Shown here: one piece after another, positions 191-9,241 of the stretch
Position numbering within the stretch: the stretch's first letter is position 1
How the letters are laid out: every line of letters begins with the position of its first letter
NCBI GenBank assembly: GCA_025352435.1
Contig: JANXTN010000031.1
Span: 1 to 13,916 of the forward strand
Direction of reading: 5' to 3'
Length of the DNA: 13,916 nt
Source of the DNA: Ferruginibacter sp.
Lineage (GTDB): Bacteria > Bacteroidota > Bacteroidia > Chitinophagales > Chitinophagaceae
Position numbers and translations under genes: made by a program
The notes under the pieces: generated by a model
The model's input: the letters and a program-made list of their open reading frames with translations, nothing else
Database searches by the model: none
What the model was told of the DNA's origin: nothing

Positions 191-270
191 TACAAAGCCC
201 AAGGGCTGGCGGATAGAAGTGGAAATCCTTTTTGCTGCCTTTCAGCAAAAAGATTGTAACGCAGAGCCGC
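191..270 (+). ncRNA. Structured intergenic element, probably a dispersed Bacteroidota repeat/RNA motif
   Basis: A perfect 10-bp stem (CTTTTTGCTG at 228-237, CAGCAAAAAG at 243-252) has a 5-nt loop. It is enclosed by a second potential stem: GGCT (204-207) with AGCC (265-268) and GCG (209-211) with CGC (260-262). Between the stems lies an asymmetric internal loop holding GATAGAAGTGGAAATC on one side and GATTGTAA on the other. From memory, closely similar GATAG-AAGTGGAAATCC-TTTT ... AAAAGATTG-AACG strings, with variable hairpin sequence, recur between genes of many Bacteroidota; I could not search for this. No T-tract follows the hairpin on either strand, so it is a poor classical terminator. 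The strand is taken from the remembered core. Confidence 0.45.
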
Positions 271-327
271 TACAAATGCTGAACAAAATTACCTCAGCAC
301 ACAGCCCCACAAAATAATCTAAACCCT

Positions 328-2250
328 CTAAAACCTCCACCGCACAAAGGCTTCCATGGCGGCGTACTCTGCTAGGCCAAGTTTGTTGTAGAGGTCTGCG
401 GTGGCTTTGTTGCGCTCTTCGGCTCGTTTCCAAAACTCACGGCTATCTGCCCCTTGGAAGACTACGCCATCTTTTTGGCTCTGGTGTTTAAAGATGCCGT
501 TGCGTTTTTTAAGCACCTGATCTGGACTCATGGGCACGGCCATTTCTATTATATCTATATCCCACTCCGCCCATGCGCCTTTATAAAGCCACAGCCAGCA
601 ATCGTTCATAAAGGGCTGAGGCTTTAATCTTTTTACGGCTTCAAAAACAGCATCGAGACAAACTCTGTGTGTGCCGTGTGGATCTGCAAGATCGCCTGCG
701 GCATAAATCTGGTGCGGTTGTATTTGCTGTATTAATTTTTCTATGATGTTATAATCTTCTTCGCGGAGTTCGTTTTTTTCTACGAGACCAGTTTCGTAAA
801 AAGGCATGTTTAAAAAGTGCGCATTCTCAGGGGGCAAGCCTACAAACCTACAGGTGTTTTTTGCTTCTCCTTTACGGATAGTGCCTTTTACCTGGCGCAG
901 TGCGGGGATGTCTTTTTCGCCATTGCGTTTTACTTTTAAAAAGGCCAGTGCATCATCGTACATCTTTTCTGTGTCTTCGCTTTTTAAATTAAACTGCTCG
1001 TTGTAATCTTTTACAAACTCTATAAAACGCAGGGCTTCATCATCTGCCACTGCAATGTTACCGCTGGTTTGGTAGGCCACATGTACATCGTGTCCCTGAT
1101 CTAATAATCTTTGAAAAGTGCCCCCCATAGAAATGATATCATCATCGGGATGCGGACTAAAAATGAGTACTCTTTTTTTGGCAGGATTTGCACGCTCTGG
1201 CCTGTGCGTATCTTCTGCATTTGGCTTGCCGCCGGGCCAACCGGTAATGGTATGTTGCAATTGATTAAACACTTCAATATTGATATCGTATGCCTGCCCA
1301 TAGAGCGCTAACAAATCGCTCAAACCATTTTGATTGTAATTATTGTTGGTGAGTTTTAAAATAGATTTTTGCAGCGTAAAAGATAAATTTGTTACAGCTT
1401 TTTTAATAAGGTTTTTATTCCAGAAAACATCATCTGTAAGCCACGGCGTTTTTATGCGGGTGAGTTCTGCAGAACTGCTTTCATCCAGCACGAACTGCAC
1501 ATTTTGATGACCTTGCAAATAAGATGCAGGCACAAACTCTGTTACGGGGCCTTCCACAGCTTCTTTTACAATGTTTGCCTTCGCATCGCCCCATGCAAGA
1601 AGCACAATTCTTTTTGCTTTTAATATGCTGCCAATGCCCATTGTAATTGCCTTGCGAGGCACATTAGCGAGACCGCCAAATTGATAAGCGGCATCAAATC
1701 GGGTAAGATTATCCAGCGTTATTAACCTGGTAACGGAACTAACATGGCTGCCGGGTTCATTAAAACCAATGTGGCCATTGCGGCCGATACACAGCAATTG
1801 AAAATCTATACCTCCAAATGAAGCCACCTTTTGTTCATATGCTTCACAATGTTTTTTTACATCTTCAGGATTTATATCTCCCTGCGGAATAAAACAGTTT
1901 TGCTTTTTTATGTTGATGTGGTTGAACAAATTTTCGTTCATAAACCTGCCATAGCTTTGTATAGCATCTGGCTGCAGGCCAAAATATTCATCTAGGTTAA
2001 AGACAACAACGTTTTCAAAATTTAAGCCTTGCTCTTTGTGCAAACGAATTAATGCCGTGTAAACTTTGCGTGGTGTAGCGCCCGTTGCAAGCCCTAACAC
2101 AGTTCTTTGTCCCACTGTGTTTTTAGAAGTGATGAGTGCTGCTATTTCGTTTGCAACTGCATTACAAACTTCTTCAACAGAAGTATAGATAAGTGTATCT
2201 ATTTTCTCAAAAGATAATAGCCGCCTTGGGCTTGTTGTTTCATTGACCAT
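328..2250 (-). CDS. NagB-like glucosamine-6-phosphate deaminase domain fused to PIG-L/LmbE deacetylase domain
   Basis: The 640-residue protein has two domains. Residues about 20-290 resemble glucosamine-6-phosphate deaminase: a phosphate-binding loop LGLATGATP (52-60), FNLDEYFGL (84-92) with D87 matching the catalytic Asp72 of E. coli NagB, GRNGHIGFNEP (156-166) and GDAKA (221-225). Residues about 355-640 resemble PIG-L/LmbE zinc deacetylases, with SPHPDDD (365-371) and DPHGTH (523-528) supplying likely metal ligands. The same two-domain layout is known in Bacteroides (the BT_0258 type, a putative deaminase). E. coli NagB has Asp141 in the H143-containing active-site motif; here that position is Asn158, while His160 and Glu165 remain. 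Deaminase activity is therefore uncertain. The gene is divergent from murQ with 132 bp between them, and no separate nagA or nagB is in the window. One inferred role is deacetylation, perhaps with deamination, of amino sugars from MurQ. The start ATG at 2250 gives a typical NagB lead-in. Confidence 0.9.
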   Translation of the reverse strand: MVNETTSPRRLLSFEKIDTLIYTSVEEVCNAVANEIAALITSKNTVGQRTVLGLATGATPRKVYTALIRLHKEQGLNFENVVVFNLDEYFGLQPDAIQSYGRFMNENLFNHINIKKQNCFIPQGDINPEDVKKHCEAYEQKVASFGGIDFQLLCIGRNGHIGFNEPGSHVSSVTRLITLDNLTRFDAAYQFGGLANVPRKAITMGIGSILKAKRIVLLAWGDAKANIVKEAVEGPVTEFVPASYLQGHQNVQFVLDESSSAELTRIKTPWLTDDVFWNKNLIKKAVTNLSFTLQKSILKLTNNNYNQNGLSDLLALYGQAYDINIEVFNQLQHTITGWPGGKPNAEDTHRPERANPAKKRVLIFSPHPDDDIISMGGTFQRLLDQGHDVHVAYQTSGNIAVADDEALRFIEFVKDYNEQFNLKSEDTEKMYDDALAFLKVKRNGEKDIPALRQVKGTIRKGEAKNTCRFVGLPPENAHFLNMPFYETGLVEKNELREEDYNIIEKLIQQIQPHQIYAAGDLADPHGTHRVCLDAVFEAVKRLKPQPFMNDCWLWLYKGAWAEWDIDIIEMAVPMSPDQVLKKRNGIFKHQSQKDGVVFQGADSREFWKRAEERNKATADLYNKLGLAEYAAMEAFVRWRF

Positions 2251-2382
2251 AAGAAGATTTTTGAATCTTTTATTTCAGCTAAATATAGTTTGTTTTTTTA
2301 AAGATTCTTTCTGGTGAATTGAAAATTAATACAGAAATATTAAGCCGTAAATTGCATTTGCATTAAACAAATAAAAAAGAAT
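2251..2382. promoter_or_regulatory. Divergent promoter region between nagB-like gene and murQ
   Basis: This 132-bp AT-rich gap must hold the leaders of both divergent genes. It contains an inverted repeat, GAATCTTT (2263-2270) and AAAGATTC (2300-2307), and a small local hairpin AAGATT-tttg-AATCTT (2254-2269). On the minus strand TATATTTA (about 2279-2286) matches the Bacteroidota -7 consensus TAnnTTTG at seven of eight positions, but no good -33 TTTG partner is visible. No consensus promoter was seen for murQ. The promoter assignments are weak; the regulatory role follows mainly from the gene arrangement. Confidence 0.4.
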
Positions 2383-3207
2383 ATGCAGGAATTTATTAGG
2401 GTAACCGAGAGCACAAGTAATTACAATGATCTGGAAAAAATGAGTGTGCAGGAGATACTGGTAAATATTAATAAAGAGGATGAAACTGTTGCTGCTGCTG
2501 TGCATGCGGCTATGCCGCAAATAGAAAAACTGGTAACTATCATTGTAGATAACATGCTGGCAGGTGGTAGATTATTTTATATGGGTGCAGGCACGAGTGG
2601 ACGATTAGGTATATTAGATGCAAGTGAAATTCCCCCAACTTTTGGTATGCCTTATGGCATCATCATCGGGCTAATTGCCGGGGGAGAAAAAGCAATACAA
2701 AAAGCCATCGAAAATGCTGAGGATAGCCTCACACAAGGGTGGCTTGATTTGGAGGAACATGGCATAAATAAAAATGATGTAGTGATAGGAATTGCTGCAA
2801 GCGGTACAACGCCTTATGTAATTGGCGCACTGGAAGCATGCAGAAATAAAAATATAACAACTGGCTCTATAAGCTGTAACCAAGGCTCACCGCTGAGTGC
2901 AGCCGCAGACTATCCAATTGAAGTTGTAGTAGGCCCCGAGTTTGTTACTGGTAGTACCCGTATGAAAAGCGGCACGGCACAGAAGCTGGTGTTGAATATG
3001 ATATCAACTGCCGTGATGATACAGATAGGACGAGTGGAAGGAAATAAAATGGTGAACATGCAACTGACTAATGAAAAATTGGTGGACCGTGGCACCAAAA
3101 TGCTGATGGAAAAAACAGGTTTGGAAGATTATGAAACAGCGAAAAATCTGTTATTGAAATATGGAAGTGTGAAGAAGGCGATGGATCATTTGGCGAGTGG
3201 GAAGTAG
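2383..3207 (+). CDS. murQ: N-acetylmuramic acid 6-phosphate etherase MurQ
   Basis: MurQ cleaves the lactyl ether of MurNAc-6-phosphate to GlcNAc-6-phosphate and D-lactate in the cytoplasm, a step of peptidoglycan recycling. The 274-residue protein is a single SIS (sugar isomerase) domain enzyme, a little shorter than E. coli MurQ (about 298). Diagnostic motifs are VTES near the start, GAGTSGRLGILDASE (68-82), IPPTFG (83-88), IAASGTTPYV in the middle and GSTRMKSGTA in the C-terminal half. Glu82 and Glu113 align with the two catalytic glutamates reported for E. coli (Glu83 and Glu114). The ATG at 2383 puts the conserved TES motif at residues 8-10, as expected. The gene diverges from the nagB-like gene and converges on anmK, whose product makes its substrate. 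Its last codons (LASGK, stop) are written in the GGCGAGTGGG repeat that fills the downstream region, so the extreme C-terminus may come from repeat invasion. Confidence 0.96.
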   Translation: MQEFIRVTESTSNYNDLEKMSVQEILVNINKEDETVAAAVHAAMPQIEKLVTIIVDNMLAGGRLFYMGAGTSGRLGILDASEIPPTFGMPYGIIIGLIAGGEKAIQKAIENAEDSLTQGWLDLEEHGINKNDVVIGIAASGTTPYVIGALEACRNKNITTGSISCNQGSPLSAAADYPIEVVVGPEFVTGSTRMKSGTAQKLVLNMISTAVMIQIGRVEGNKMVNMQLTNEKLVDRGTKMLMEKTGLEDYETAKNLLLKYGSVKKAMDHLASGK

Positions 3208-3262
3208 GGAGGGGCGAGTGGGTAGAAAGCTAGTGGCTACAGGGGAAGGGCGAGTTGGGGTT
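3192..3262 (+). repeat. G-rich GGCGAGTGGG / CTAGTGGC degenerate repeat tract
   Basis: GGCGAGTGGG occurs at 3192-3201 and again at 3213-3222, 21 bp apart, followed by GTAGAAAGCTAGTGGC and GGCGAGTTGGGG (3249-3260). The tract begins inside the last codons of murQ. It is made of the same words (GTGGG, TAGAAA, CTAGTGGC), in inverted orientation, as the tract at 3528-3590 beyond the gap, so both convergent genes are followed by it in the sense direction. I remember similar GAGTGG/CTAGTGGC strings in intergenic DNA of other Bacteroidota, but this is unverified. Confidence 0.6.
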
Positions 3263-3583
3263 TTGCAAGTAGCGGATTTATAAGTATTTTTTTTATTTCA
3301 ATATTATCAAGAGTTATAAATTTTATTGTTCCATATAAGACAACATCCTCTAGCGTTAATTTCAATGCCTTTTTAATTGATCGTATTGTCCAAAATAATA
3401 AAACTACTTGTGAGTTTTTAATCCCCAAAAAATAACAGTTTTAATTTTTTTTACTCAGAAAATTCGTTGGCCAAGTTGCCCACTTTATATTGTCCACTTT
3501 CTTATTCTACTCAATGTTATTTTTTCCCCACTAGTCATTTCCTTCTAGCCATTTTCTACTAGTCACTCCCCACTCCCACTAGC
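3208..3583. other. Convergent intergenic region without a convincing gene
   Basis: These 376 bp separate the 3' ends of murQ and anmK. Both edges are repeat tracts in inverted orientation. The interior (about 3263-3470) is AT-rich with long T runs. A minus-strand open frame of 63 codons with a TTG start (3237-3428) reads into the left repeat tract, so its last residues are repeat-encoded, and it resembles no family I know. No clear intrinsic terminator for either gene was found. The layout of inverted repeats around a short AT-rich core could be a decayed small element, but no transposase or target duplication is evident. Confidence 0.5.
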
Positions 3584-3590
3584 CTAACCT
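3528..3590 (-). repeat. CTAGYCA repeat tract with 14-bp period
   Basis: CTAGTCA (3531), CTAGCCA (3545) and CTAGTCA (3559) start exactly 14 bp apart, each followed by a pyrimidine-rich spacer. CTCCCACTAGCC (3573-3584) follows out of phase. Two CCACTTT words further left (3480 and 3494) are also 14 bp apart and may be decayed units. The tract ends at the stop codon of anmK (3584-3586). Read on the minus strand it becomes CTAGTGGG/GGCTAG, the inverted counterpart of the tract after murQ. Confidence 0.65.
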
Positions 3591-4774
3591 GCAAAACTGA
3601 TCTTCCCCATACCCACACTTGGTGCAGTCTTACCAAAATTTGTTTCTCCGCCGCAAAATGCTTCATTGGCAAGTACTGCAAATAATATGGCTTCTTTTGC
3701 ATCTGGATTAATTCCTAATTCGCCTGTTGTTTTAAAAACTATTTCGGGTAATTGTTCTGTTATATTTTGCATAAGCAGAGGATTGTGCATGCCACCACCA
3801 CTGCCGTAAATAACTACATTGGTATTAGTTGATATTTGCTCAATGGCAGTAACAATCATATCTGCAGAAAATTTATTCAGCGTTGCCATTACATCGTATG
3901 CATTTAAATGATTTGTGTTCGAGGCCTGTTGCGCATTCGCTAAATAAACCAGATTAAACAATTCAGGCCCGGTAGTTTTTGGGAATGGCTTTGTAAAAAA
4001 TTCATTGTCCTTTAGAGATGCTAGAAGTGTATCTTCAACCTTTCCATGCAATGCGAAGCTCGCATTTTCATCATAATATTTTGCAGGAAAATGTTTCTGT
4101 ACATAAGCATCCATCATGGTATTTCCCGGGCCAACATCTGAGCAAAAAATATTATCAGCATTTTTATCGCCGGGTAAGTAAGTAAAGTTTGCAATGCCAC
4201 CAATATTTAATAATATGCGATTCTCACCAAGTTTGCTTAGCAATATATAATCTCCATAAATCGCCAATGGCGCACCTTCGCCACCTGCTGCAATATTTTT
4301 TTGTCTAAAATCGCTGATAGTTATTATGCCGGTCTTTACAGCGATATGATCACCATCTCCAATCTGCAAAGTGGCATTCCCAAAATCTGTCAGCCCATGC
4401 AAAGTTTTTGGCGCATGGTAAATAGTTTGGCCATGGCTTGCAATAATATCTACATCTGTATTTTTAATATTCCACTTTTGCAAAAGAGCAATTATTATTT
4501 CTGCATGTTGTATTCCAACCCATGCATTCAACAGCGTGAGTTTTTCCAGATCAATTTGTTTCTTGCTGAATATTGATTTTATTTCTTTCTTAAAAAAATC
4601 ATCATAAGGCACAGTTTCAAATTGCAGCAAATTCATTTCTATCTCGTTTCCACTTCCTTTAAAATTACAAAGCGCCACATCTAATCCATCTAAAGAAGTG
4701 CCACTCATCAGCCCTATGATAATTCGGGTTTCTTTTTGTGCAATACTGTGCAGGTGAGCAATATTTTTATTCAT
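3584..4774 (-). CDS. anmK: Anhydro-N-acetylmuramic acid kinase AnmK
   Basis: AnmK phosphorylates 1,6-anhydro-MurNAc with ATP while opening the anhydro ring, yielding MurNAc-6-phosphate, the substrate of MurQ. The 396-residue protein has the ASKHA-fold signatures of the family: GLMSGTSLDGLDVAL (21-35), ASHGQTIYH (112-120), FGNATLQIGDG (131-141), NIGGIANFTY (190-199), SDVGPGNTMMDA (212-223) and GSGGGMHNP (324-332). Asp213 in SDVGPGN matches the catalytic Asp182 of characterised AnmK enzymes. It is slightly longer than E. coli AnmK (369), partly through a short N-terminal lead of about 17 residues before the first motif. It follows susD on the same strand after 60 bp, but a strong terminator sits in that gap, so it may be expressed from read-through or separately. 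It converges on murQ across a repeat-rich gap. Confidence 0.96.
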   Translation of the reverse strand: MNKNIAHLHSIAQKETRIIIGLMSGTSLDGLDVALCNFKGSGNEIEMNLLQFETVPYDDFFKKEIKSIFSKKQIDLEKLTLLNAWVGIQHAEIIIALLQKWNIKNTDVDIIASHGQTIYHAPKTLHGLTDFGNATLQIGDGDHIAVKTGIITISDFRQKNIAAGGEGAPLAIYGDYILLSKLGENRILLNIGGIANFTYLPGDKNADNIFCSDVGPGNTMMDAYVQKHFPAKYYDENASFALHGKVEDTLLASLKDNEFFTKPFPKTTGPELFNLVYLANAQQASNTNHLNAYDVMATLNKFSADMIVTAIEQISTNTNVVIYGSGGGMHNPLLMQNITEQLPEIVFKTTGELGINPDAKEAILFAVLANEAFCGGETNFGKTAPSVGMGKISFAG

Positions 4775-6184: not shown

Positions 6185-9100
6185 TTAAAAGGTTACGTTG
6201 ATACCTAGCGCAAATGTTCTTGGGAGTGGCACTTCCACAAAATCGAAACCTCTTGTGCTATTGCTTTGCCCGGCAGTATTTATTTCAGGGTCATAACCGC
6301 TATAGTTATCAAAGCTTACTAAATTTCTGCCTGATGCCGTTACTCTAATATTCTGAATCCATTTCACTTTTGGTTTAAGATCATAGCCCACACTCAACTC
6401 TCTTAATTTTACATAATCGCCTTTTTCAATAAACTCTTCAAAAATCGGGAAAAGTGCTACACTTGTTCCTCTTGGTACTTCTCCTTTCAATTCTTTCTCA
6501 TAATCAACCAATCCACCATAATCTGAACGCTGTCCTACACGGCGGGTAAAATTGAACACATCAAAACCAAATGCCCCGTCAAACTGCAAACGGAAGGATA
6601 GTTTTTTATAATTTACTTCATTGATAAATGATAAAAATTGTTTTGGTAAAGGACTGCCTATTACTTTATTTAATAAACTTCCAGATGGCTGACCATTGGT
6701 TCTTTGAACTGTGTAGGTACCGTTAGGTCCTTGAATACCTTTTTCTCTTTGTGGCAAACCTGCCGGAGTTAACAACAAACTTCCATCAGGATTTCTTGCA
6801 TAAAACTTACTGTAAAAAGCGCCTGCAGCATAGCCATTTACCGCCCCTACCAAACCAAAACCGTCGCCGGATAAAACAAATCCTCCTGACTGAAAACCTG
6901 TTCTGTCCGTTAAAATTTCAATACCACTTACCACATTTTTGTTTTGGCTGTAAGAAACTGTAGAAAGCCATGTAACATTTTTAGATTTTACCGGTACAAA
7001 TCGCAACAATAACTCTATGCCTTTGTTTGATAAATTGCCTATATTTTGTACTTGTTTTGAATAACCACTGCCAGGTGCAAGTGTAATATTTTGAATAAGA
7101 TCTTTTACATCTTTTTTGTAATAATTAAATTCAACACTTATTCTGTCATTCAATAAACTGATATCAGTTCCAACTTCAAATTCTGTTTGTTGCTCCGGCT
7201 TTATTCCCTCATTACCTAAGTTAGCACTTGGGAAATATCCTGTAGAAGAGTTGTATTGGCTCGGATTAAAATTTGTAAATCTTGCAAATGTGTTAATCCC
7301 TGTGAGATTACCAGACCTACCCCAAGCAGCCCTCAATTTTACGCTCGAAATATATTTACTTATTTTTTCGTTCCAGAATTTTTCATTTGATAAAATATAG
7401 GAACCACTCACTTTGGGATAATATTGGTTTCTGTTTTCCTTTCCAAAAACTGACGCCGCATCAGATCTTATTGCGCCGGTAATAAATAATCTATTATCTA
7501 TGTCGAAGGACTGTTGAAGGTATTTGCCCCAAAAAGAACGCTCCTCTCTGTTCTCACCTGCTACTACTGTTCCATTGTTTGTTGTTTGCCCAAAGGGCGC
7601 AAGATTTGTTGCATCTTGAGCAGTAGTAAGTGTTTTGTCATATTGAATTGTTCCACCAATAGTAGTGGTACTTTGAAGCCACTTTTTTATGTCAATTCTG
7701 TAGGTAGCATTAAAATCGTTGTTTAACTGTACTACTGTTGCATCTGCTCTGCGGCTGTATCCGGTGGGGTAAGATGCTGTGGTATTATTGGTGGGAATAA
7801 ATGCAGTTGCAATTTGCGTGTAGTTGTCAATTCCAAAATTATAATCGAAGGTTAAACCCTCTACAGGTTTTATTTTAATAGCGGCATTAGCAATAACTCT
7901 GTTTGTTCTTTGTTTGAAATCAAACCTGTCAATAGCTTCCAAAGGATTTGTTCTTTGAACACCAAGTGCGTTTAAAGTAACGGAAGGATATAAACCAGTT
8001 GTTGGATTTTTGTGTGGATCTACATAATTGTTTGCAAAAATAAATCCGGTAAGTGCACCATAATCTGAATTTATTCCACCGTTTGGAATGTCTCTGCTCA
8101 CGCTGTAACTATAACTTGCCCCTGCTGATAATGAAATGTATTTATTTATTTTTTGATCAAGGCTTAATCTTAAACCGCTTCTATTAAAATTTGTATTACC
8201 TACAATTCCCTGATTGTTTAAGTTAGACAAAGAAAAATAATACTTTGTTTGGCTCGAACCTCCCGAAACTGCTAAACTATTTTCAGTTCCTATTGCTTTT
8301 CTAAAAATCTCGTCCTGATAATCGTAACGGGTTACAGGCTTTGTAGATGCATCAGTTAAATTATTGGGGTTGTTAAATACAAACGGTACTTTATTTACCT
8401 GCAATGTTTTTCTTATTGAACTAGTTTTTAGTTGTGTGCTGAAGGTGATTGTAGGTTTACCTTCCTTACCTCTTTTTGTAAATAATTGCACCACACCGTT
8501 ATTTGCTCTGGAACCATAAATAGCTGCAGCAGATGCACCTTTCAAAATTTCGATATGGTCAATGTCATTGGGGTTTATATCTGCTAGTCTATTTTGAGAT
8601 CCTCCACCAAGGTCAATCAACTGGCGGGAATCATTATTGATGATCACTCCATCTAACAAATAAAGTGGATCTGATGAACCGCCTAAGGTGCTTACACCTC
8701 TCATAGTAATGCTAATGCCACCTGCAGGGTTGCCGGAGTTTTGGTTAACCTGTGCGCCAACTACTTTTCCTTGCAAAGCTCCATCAATTGACGATGCGCC
8801 ACTATTTCTTATATCTTTCGCAGAAACTGTAGCTATAGCATTTCCTAATTTTCGTTTACTTGTTGCTACAAGCGTACCTGTAACAACTACCTCATCTAAG
8901 CCTAGAACGTCGGTTGATAAAATATTGTTTGCAGAATATTCGTTTTCACCTGCGAGAATTTTTAAAGTACTTGTGTTTACCTTATAACTGACACCGGAAT
9001 ATTCAAGCACATATGTTCCGGGTTTAAGGTTAGCATTGATAAGATAATTTCCATCTGGGTCTGTAACAGCGCCAAAGTTTGTTTTCTTTATGGACACATT

Positions 9101-9241
9101 TGCATTGGTTACCGTCTTGCCTGTGTTGTCTGTAATTTTTCCGGAAATACGAACCTGCGCCATAGATGAAAATCCTGCTAAAAGAAACAGAATAACCAGT
9201 AGGCTTGGCAGACGCAGAAATTGTTTAATAAATTTTTTCAT
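6185..9241 (-). CDS. SusC/RagA-family TonB-dependent outer-membrane transporter
   Basis: SusC proteins are TonB-driven beta-barrels that import oligomers with their SusD partner. This one is 1018 residues, a normal length. Residues 1-29 form a Sec signal peptide ending SSMAQ. Residues about 31-109 form a carboxypeptidase-regulatory-like domain (ISGKITDNTGK; DPDGNYLI). LDEVVVTGT (115-123) is the TonB-box-like segment before the plug (about 120-260), which contains DPLYLLDGVIIN and EILKGASAAAIYGSRA (231-246). The rest is barrel strands, ending in the aromatic residue of LGINVTF. There is no extra N-terminal STN domain, so a sigma/anti-sigma signalling partner is not expected. It is the first gene of a minus-strand cluster, divergent from a DeoR-type regulator, which points to control by a repressor. 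No glycoside hydrolase is encoded nearby, unlike a classical polysaccharide-utilisation locus. Confidence 0.95.
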   Translation of the reverse strand: MKKFIKQFLRLPSLLVILFLLAGFSSMAQVRISGKITDNTGKTVTNANVSIKKTNFGAVTDPDGNYLINANLKPGTYVLEYSGVSYKVNTSTLKILAGENEYSANNILSTDVLGLDEVVVTGTLVATSKRKLGNAIATVSAKDIRNSGASSIDGALQGKVVGAQVNQNSGNPAGGISITMRGVSTLGGSSDPLYLLDGVIINNDSRQLIDLGGGSQNRLADINPNDIDHIEILKGASAAAIYGSRANNGVVQLFTKRGKEGKPTITFSTQLKTSSIRKTLQVNKVPFVFNNPNNLTDASTKPVTRYDYQDEIFRKAIGTENSLAVSGGSSQTKYYFSLSNLNNQGIVGNTNFNRSGLRLSLDQKINKYISLSAGASYSYSVSRDIPNGGINSDYGALTGFIFANNYVDPHKNPTTGLYPSVTLNALGVQRTNPLEAIDRFDFKQRTNRVIANAAIKIKPVEGLTFDYNFGIDNYTQIATAFIPTNNTTASYPTGYSRRADATVVQLNNDFNATYRIDIKKWLQSTTTIGGTIQYDKTLTTAQDATNLAPFGQTTNNGTVVAGENREERSFWGKYLQQSFDIDNRLFITGAIRSDAASVFGKENRNQYYPKVSGSYILSNEKFWNEKISKYISSVKLRAAWGRSGNLTGINTFARFTNFNPSQYNSSTGYFPSANLGNEGIKPEQQTEFEVGTDISLLNDRISVEFNYYKKDVKDLIQNITLAPGSGYSKQVQNIGNLSNKGIELLLRFVPVKSKNVTWLSTVSYSQNKNVVSGIEILTDRTGFQSGGFVLSGDGFGLVGAVNGYAAGAFYSKFYARNPDGSLLLTPAGLPQREKGIQGPNGTYTVQRTNGQPSGSLLNKVIGSPLPKQFLSFINEVNYKKLSFRLQFDGAFGFDVFNFTRRVGQRSDYGGLVDYEKELKGEVPRGTSVALFPIFEEFIEKGDYVKLRELSVGYDLKPKVKWIQNIRVTASGRNLVSFDNYSGYDPEINTAGQSNSTRGFDFVEVPLPRTFALGINVTF

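Follow-up and report, generated by a model that had tools for sequence, protein, structure and literature searches.

Flavo-1 in Ferruginibacter and its relatives: a conserved single-strand fold that may belong to a dispersed repeat

The structured element near the start of the window (the whole analysed stretch of 13,916 nucleotides from a Ferruginibacter sp. contig, JANXTN010000031.1) belongs to the Flavo-1 family (Rfam RF01705), and comparison of copies indicates that in this lineage its fold extends past the Rfam model into an outer stem, P1, and a 3' box. Weinberg et al. (2010, PMC2864571) tabulated Flavo-1 as a probable RNA with no regulatory role assigned to it, and a section and table of a 2022 review place it among the most abundant sRNAs (PMC9029176). 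On balance we slightly favor a different view: that Flavo-1 is a dispersed non-coding repeat, similar to REP and MITE elements, that depends on the folding of its plus strand for its own spread or upkeep, and is not an sRNA gene. If so, reported sRNA abundance reflects copy number and searches for target genes are misdirected.

Membership of the window element in Flavo-1 is settled. The Rfam covariance model aligns in full with a score of 59.3 bits against a gathering cut-off of 42 (E 5e-11 in the window), bearing out the resemblance that the original prediction had suggested, and in itself the copy is an ordinary Flavo-1 copy. The perfect 10-bp hairpin of that prediction can be read directly from the sequence, with CTTTTTGCTG (228-237) forming ten pairs with CAGCAAAAAG (243-252). 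The loop sequences it named are also present, GATAGAAGTGGAAATC at 212-227 and GATTGTAA at 252-259, but what it described as one asymmetric internal loop is two 3x3 loops with short helices between them. Its outer stem (204-211 with 260-268) was misplaced: folding and the Rfam alignment instead pair 209-212 with 267-270, and a further stem joins 203-208 to 302-307 (Table 1). One additional mismatch, A215 opposite G264, is seen in the window copy. The neighboring glucosamine-6-phosphate deaminase-like gene has its 3' end toward the element, and an ORF at 81-317 passes through the element.

Table 1. Features of the Flavo-1 copy and its neighbor gene, in window coordinates
Feature	Position	Strand	Basis
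Flavo-1 (RF01705) match, full model 1-76	192-277	+	covariance-model score and alignment
P1 outer stem, 5' strand GGGCTG, unpaired in the Rfam model	203-208	+	predicted fold; pairing test over copies
P1 outer stem, 3' strand CAGCCC	302-307	+	predicted fold; conserved 3' box (gCCCcaaa-like) in G000 and G030
P2 base, 5' strand GCGG, pairs with 267-270	209-212	+	Rfam alignment, predicted fold
P2 base, 3' strand CCGC	267-270	+	Rfam alignment, predicted fold
Internal loop 1, GAA opposite GCA (261-263), GNA/GNA type	216-218	+	sequence, column counts
Short helix GT, pairs with AC 259-260	219-220	+	alignment, fold; UA/CG covariation here
Internal loop 2, GGA opposite GTA (256-258)	221-223	+	sequence, column counts
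Apical hairpin, 10 perfect pairs (228-237/243-252), exchangeable tip	228-252	+	sequence, fold, tip comparison
Small hairpin P3 (TGCTGA/TCAGCA), predicted in window copy	277-299	+	predicted fold
Glucosamine-6-phosphate deaminase-like protein, neighbor gene	328-2250	-	NF002557, 1036 bits

The plus strand of 203-307 folds at -36.1 kcal/mol versus -23.3 +/- 3.1 for 200 shuffles (z -4.1, none as good). The minus strand of the same stretch also folds well (z -3.6, 1 of 200 as good), and 209-270 alone gives z -2.7 (4 of 200). For the orthologue L247, a stretch chosen without part of its P1 gives no significant fold (z -1.3, 19 of 200). Internal loops are mostly G-N-A opposite G-N-A, a GNA/GNA arrangement that would be expected to form sheared G-A pairs; in the window's own genome (G000) and a second Ferruginibacter genome (G030), the four A columns hold A in 81, 72, 81, and 79 of 82 copies, while one GNA loop is relaxed in Flavobacterium sp. 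SLB02 (G034). In G000 and G030 (37 and 41 copies), conservation starts about 37 bases before GATAG and continues for about 45 bases past AGC. The P1 strands of each copy pair better with each other than with permuted partners (z 5.3, 0 of 500 permutations as good; 88 of 90 G000 and G030 copies), with all five P1 pairs formed in only 17 of the 88 by the score used. The same test is not significant in G034 (z 1.0, 88 of 500 as good; 53 of 60 copies). An earlier, looser test gave a weaker signal in G000 (own 13.63 versus 12.67, sd 0.29) and G030 (13.84 versus 12.99, sd 0.36) and none in G034 (11.86 versus 11.88). P3 was rejected as a general family feature, the corresponding region having a mean z of -0.17 with 12 of 90 copies below -2. 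A sub-family (L041, L246, L298, L316, L123, and L106) combines a P1 of the GCGTG/CACGC kind with a small hairpin following the main one, and occurs in Ferruginibacter-type and Flavobacterium genomes alike.

Constant loops with compensating stem changes, as anticipated by the original prediction, are seen in alignments of many copies. RNAalifold on 40 copies yields 16 pairs; in 13 of them both sides have changed with pairing maintained. The same 40 copies supplied a model, which served to align 82 matches from G000 and G030 and 61 from G034, with 95.1% and 94.8% of cells paired, respectively. Double-changed cells number 172 against 55.8 in shuffles for the former set and 205 against 61.3 for the latter, both alignments leaning to the structure of a model whose building set overlaps the aligned copies. 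With the innermost of the 16 pairs left out, 2052 paired cells contain 54 G-U and 18 A-C oppositions; the plus strand is therefore the strand whose fold is kept. Such a fold fits both RNA and single-stranded DNA, so the conserved RNA fold originally proposed holds as a one-strand fold, but not necessarily as RNA. A repeat identity for Flavo-1 would show that even strong covariation is not in itself proof of a functional RNA.

Copies are dispersed, as had been supposed. Of 150 candidates scored in the window's genome (2.75 Mb, 84.85% complete), 44 match at E <= 0.001 and 30 of these exceed the cut-off, and matches recur in other Bacteroidota genomes, as membership in Flavo-1 would require. No match was found in 14 control genomes. 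Scoring 109 candidates in each of 30 genomes, the window's own among them, gave matches in nine: 18 congeners contain 0 to 4 each, and a genome from another family (G019) at least 106. Counts reach 66 in G030, a Ferruginibacter MAG (the genome of L051) with a neighbor protein at 89% identity, 94 in G034, and 31 in Polaribacter sp. MSW5 (G031); three other genomes scored alongside have 2, 0, and 3. Across a phylum sample, 28 of 198 genomes have a match (22 candidates scored per genome, making per-genome counts lower bounds). A further genome, G039, shows 17 BLAST matches to one copy plus its flanks.

Many sites are shared between the two Ferruginibacter genomes. At least 24 of the 44 G000 copies have a counterpart at the corresponding G030 site; both flanks support 18 of these, and one flank supports the other 6, including the window's own copy. 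Flank comparison matched 22 G000 copies (among 46 of the 66 G030 copies), and a flank search with seven further copies added L027 and L207. Among the remainder, L213 has matching flanks in G030 with the element absent, the flanks of L037 lie apart there, and L044 (one flank only), L050, and L210 gave no paired flank matches in G030. Two G030 places match L036, and L218 stands opposite two elements in that genome. In all 24 alignments (22 copies) the element is more identical than the adjoining 90 bases, with gaps counted as mismatches and the flank taking in part of the extended element. Over 24 pairs and 308 scored cells (52 gapped cells set aside), we counted 14 double changes against 2.5 expected if the two sides were independent; 10 keep pairing and 4 do not. 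Changes on one side only number 28; pairing survives in 11 of them, and in the other 17 one copy is left unpaired. This conservation and paired change could mean that the host selects the element site by site, which would count against the repeat reading.

Different parts of the element tell different histories at these sites. When G030 copies are ranked on lower arms and loops, the orthologue comes first in 14 of 24 cases and is among the top three in 20; ranked on the hairpin tip, it comes first in 7 of 24, with a median rank of 12.5 of 46. At five of the 24 shared sites (L023, L027, L028, L030, and L035) the tip has been exchanged, being 96 to 100% identical to that of another G030 copy and less than 40% identical to the orthologue's over the same columns. 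The tip is kept in the orthologue at L022, L034, L045, L046, L207, and L212. Low tip identity arises partly from the alignment of runs and gaps (e.g., L036 and L024). One site, L313, has three different tips in three Flavobacterium genomes. Because exchange or conversion would yield compensated arms in a single step, double changes at shared sites are no proof of host selection.

Occupancy also varies between relatives. At a G034 site between genes that we take from their translations to be nuoH and nuoI, the hairpin is missing from G041 and G050, where the matches abut or overlap by three bases and the 3' box is kept, a case that looks like deletion from the sequence left behind. The same site is filled in G043, G052, G038, and G049, holds other sequence in G037, and is a bare short gap in G044 and G046. 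Four genomes were searched for ten more G034 sites, and eight of these (without L291 and L270) were aligned in the genomes whose stretches were compared. L298 and L261 are filled in G034 and G039, the former absent from G041, G043, and G050 and the latter from G043 and G050. L309 is likewise filled in G034 and G039 and absent from two of G041, G043, and G050. L303 is absent from G041, G043, and G050 and has an interrupted copy in G039 (L423), in which a long extra inverted stretch, apparently nested, lies inside the 3' part. The L286 element is absent from G039, L293 has no recognizable element in G050, only the 5' half of L263 is retained in G043, and L313 is occupied in G039 and G043 but unoccupied in G041. 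Absence at a site could reflect either a lack of insertion or a later deletion. No clear target duplication is visible at the empty sites; P1 forms an inverted repeat near the element ends in G000 and G030, which is not significant in G034. In the flanks of several G000 and G030 copies (e.g., L036 and L253), a GTTGAAAAAAGATTTA-like stretch precedes the hairpin and recurs more loosely after it, as a near direct repeat.

The position of copies relative to genes follows no consistent rule. With simple ORF calls, 133 of 150 copies have a gene on both sides and 2 overlap a long ORF. Between tandem genes, 34 copies read in the same direction and 48 in the opposite one; convergent genes enclose another 31 and divergent genes 20. 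The corresponding with/against counts are 22/18 in G034, 7/19 in G030, and 5/11 in G000, and convergent/divergent counts are 16/4, 4/8, and 11/8, so that no preference for orientation or gene end is consistent across the three genomes. Uneven counts within single genomes do speak against the repeat reading. In a comparison for replication-strand bias in G034, 37 copies lie on the plus and 33 on the minus strand (70 of 94 matches), with GC skew too unclear to locate the origin. The -7 box has the consensus TAnnTTTG. Boxes reading into the element occur in 8 and 10 of 136 copies against a far-flank background of 8, 7, 10, and 3; boxes reading away are commoner (16 and 24 of 136). The full TTG-N17..22-TAnnTTTG arrangement is present in the 130 plus-strand bases ahead of the element in 0 of 136 copies, a weak test given that far flanks score only 0 to 3 of 136. 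Three Flavobacterium species (L123, L106, and L108) form an exception: the element there has a promoter-like sequence (judged by eye) on one side and a start codon on the other.

Taken together, the data on orientation, promoters, and turnover lean toward a DNA repeat, and individual sites may in addition have a selected RNA role. We prefer the repeat reading because it accounts for scattered copies, their indifference to genes, exchanged tips, and empty sites. It is weakened by the placement between a promoter-like sequence and a start codon in three Flavobacterium species, and the comparisons revealed no transposase, target duplication, or fresh insertion. Mechanistically, a putative trans-acting enzyme would recognize the folded plus strand by its long imperfect hairpin, GNA/GNA loops, variable tip, and often a closing P1. 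Recognition could take place on single-stranded DNA during replication, or on an RNA intermediate, when copies are copied or converted. A fold requirement imposed by such an enzyme would allow covariation to develop even where a copy does nothing for the host, and old copies would then persist, slowly changing, or decay. A bolder version, which we regard as unlikely, is that Flavo-1 represents a new kind of non-autonomous Bacteroidota element that needs no Y1 transposase and trades tips as cassettes via a folded intermediate of single-stranded RNA or DNA, its covariation reflecting its own replication and not a host RNA function.

Persistence at many shared sites is better explained by a host RNA role. 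A cis-acting element kept for the host, whose transcribed plus-strand fold affects mRNA stability, processing, or translation, would also account for the excess of double-changed cells (172 and 205), conservation with compensation at shared sites, and placement ahead of start codons in the three Flavobacterium species and between the presumed nuoH and nuoI. We nevertheless consider it possible more than probable, given inconsistent orientation, no excess of -7 boxes reading in, and related species that have the same site without the element. In addition, the mapping data of one F. psychrophilum study include hits sense or antisense to transcribed regions and many hits in none (PMC9723704). A trans-acting family, as the Rfam type 'Gene; sRNA' and the strong plus-strand fold would have it, is very doubtful in light of dozens of divergent copies with changing tips and the empty, if weak, promoter search. 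The terminator hypothesis is the least probable of all. Hairpins do lie between genes, and the gene ends that face copies show a slight excess of 3' over 5' (153 versus 130, summed), but the window copy has a T-run in its 5' arm, an A-run in its 3' arm, and no T-run after the hairpin, a polarity that is wrong on both strands and agrees with the original prediction that this is not a simple terminator; most copies inspected look alike.

Mobilization by a RAYT/IS200-type enzyme, as for REP elements, would suit a short, palindromic, extragenic, multicopy sequence with a strand-specific fold. It is a shade more doubtful still than a trans-acting RNA, since G031 (31 matches) and G039 (17 BLAST matches) have no Y1_Tnp match. 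Y1_Tnp occurs in 24 of 30 genomes whatever their Flavo-1 copy number, and 49 of its loci, inspected with flanks of about 1.5 kb or as far as the contig reaches, contain one weak Flavo-1 match (E 0.054); no RAYT/Y1 gene flanked by copies was found at these loci. RAYT-mobilized REPs carry a tagging tetranucleotide, GTAG/GGAG, at the hairpin foot. Like REP/BIME sequences, Flavo-1 is short, structured, extragenic, multicopy, present in either orientation, and patchy between species; unlike them, it has no Y1 partner that we found and has a longer imperfect hairpin, GNA loops, and an exchangeable tip. ERIC and MITE-type sequences are non-autonomous intergenic palindromic repeats with no evident gene of their own. 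Flavo-1 shares the intergenic location, palindromic form, lack of an evident gene, and variable occupancy between species, but shows no clear target duplication, and the search for a parental transposon, which identified none, covered Y1 alone. Set against RF01705, the window copy is a full-length Bacteroidota match with the same loops and stem plan; differences are the predicted continuation into P1 and the 3' box outside the model, and an sRNA-gene listing that the evidence here does not favor. In the open-licence literature, as far as the relevant passages go, we found no description of Flavo-1 as a dispersed repeat, and those of PMC9723704, PMC2864571, PMC9029176, and PMC3733652 do not call it a mobile repeat.

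Two minor observations concern tips and gene neighborhood. The tips of L049, L211, and L249 contain GAGGAACGA. A palindromic repeat close to G034 copies (in the flanks of L262 and L311) has this sequence too, on its opposite strand; judged from sequence, it is as if one repeat had entered another's tip. Window positions 328-4774 and 6185-9241 form an amino-sugar recycling neighborhood, with genes in the order glucosamine-6-phosphate deaminase-like, MurNAc-6-phosphate etherase, anhydro-MurNAc kinase, and then a SusC/RagA receptor.
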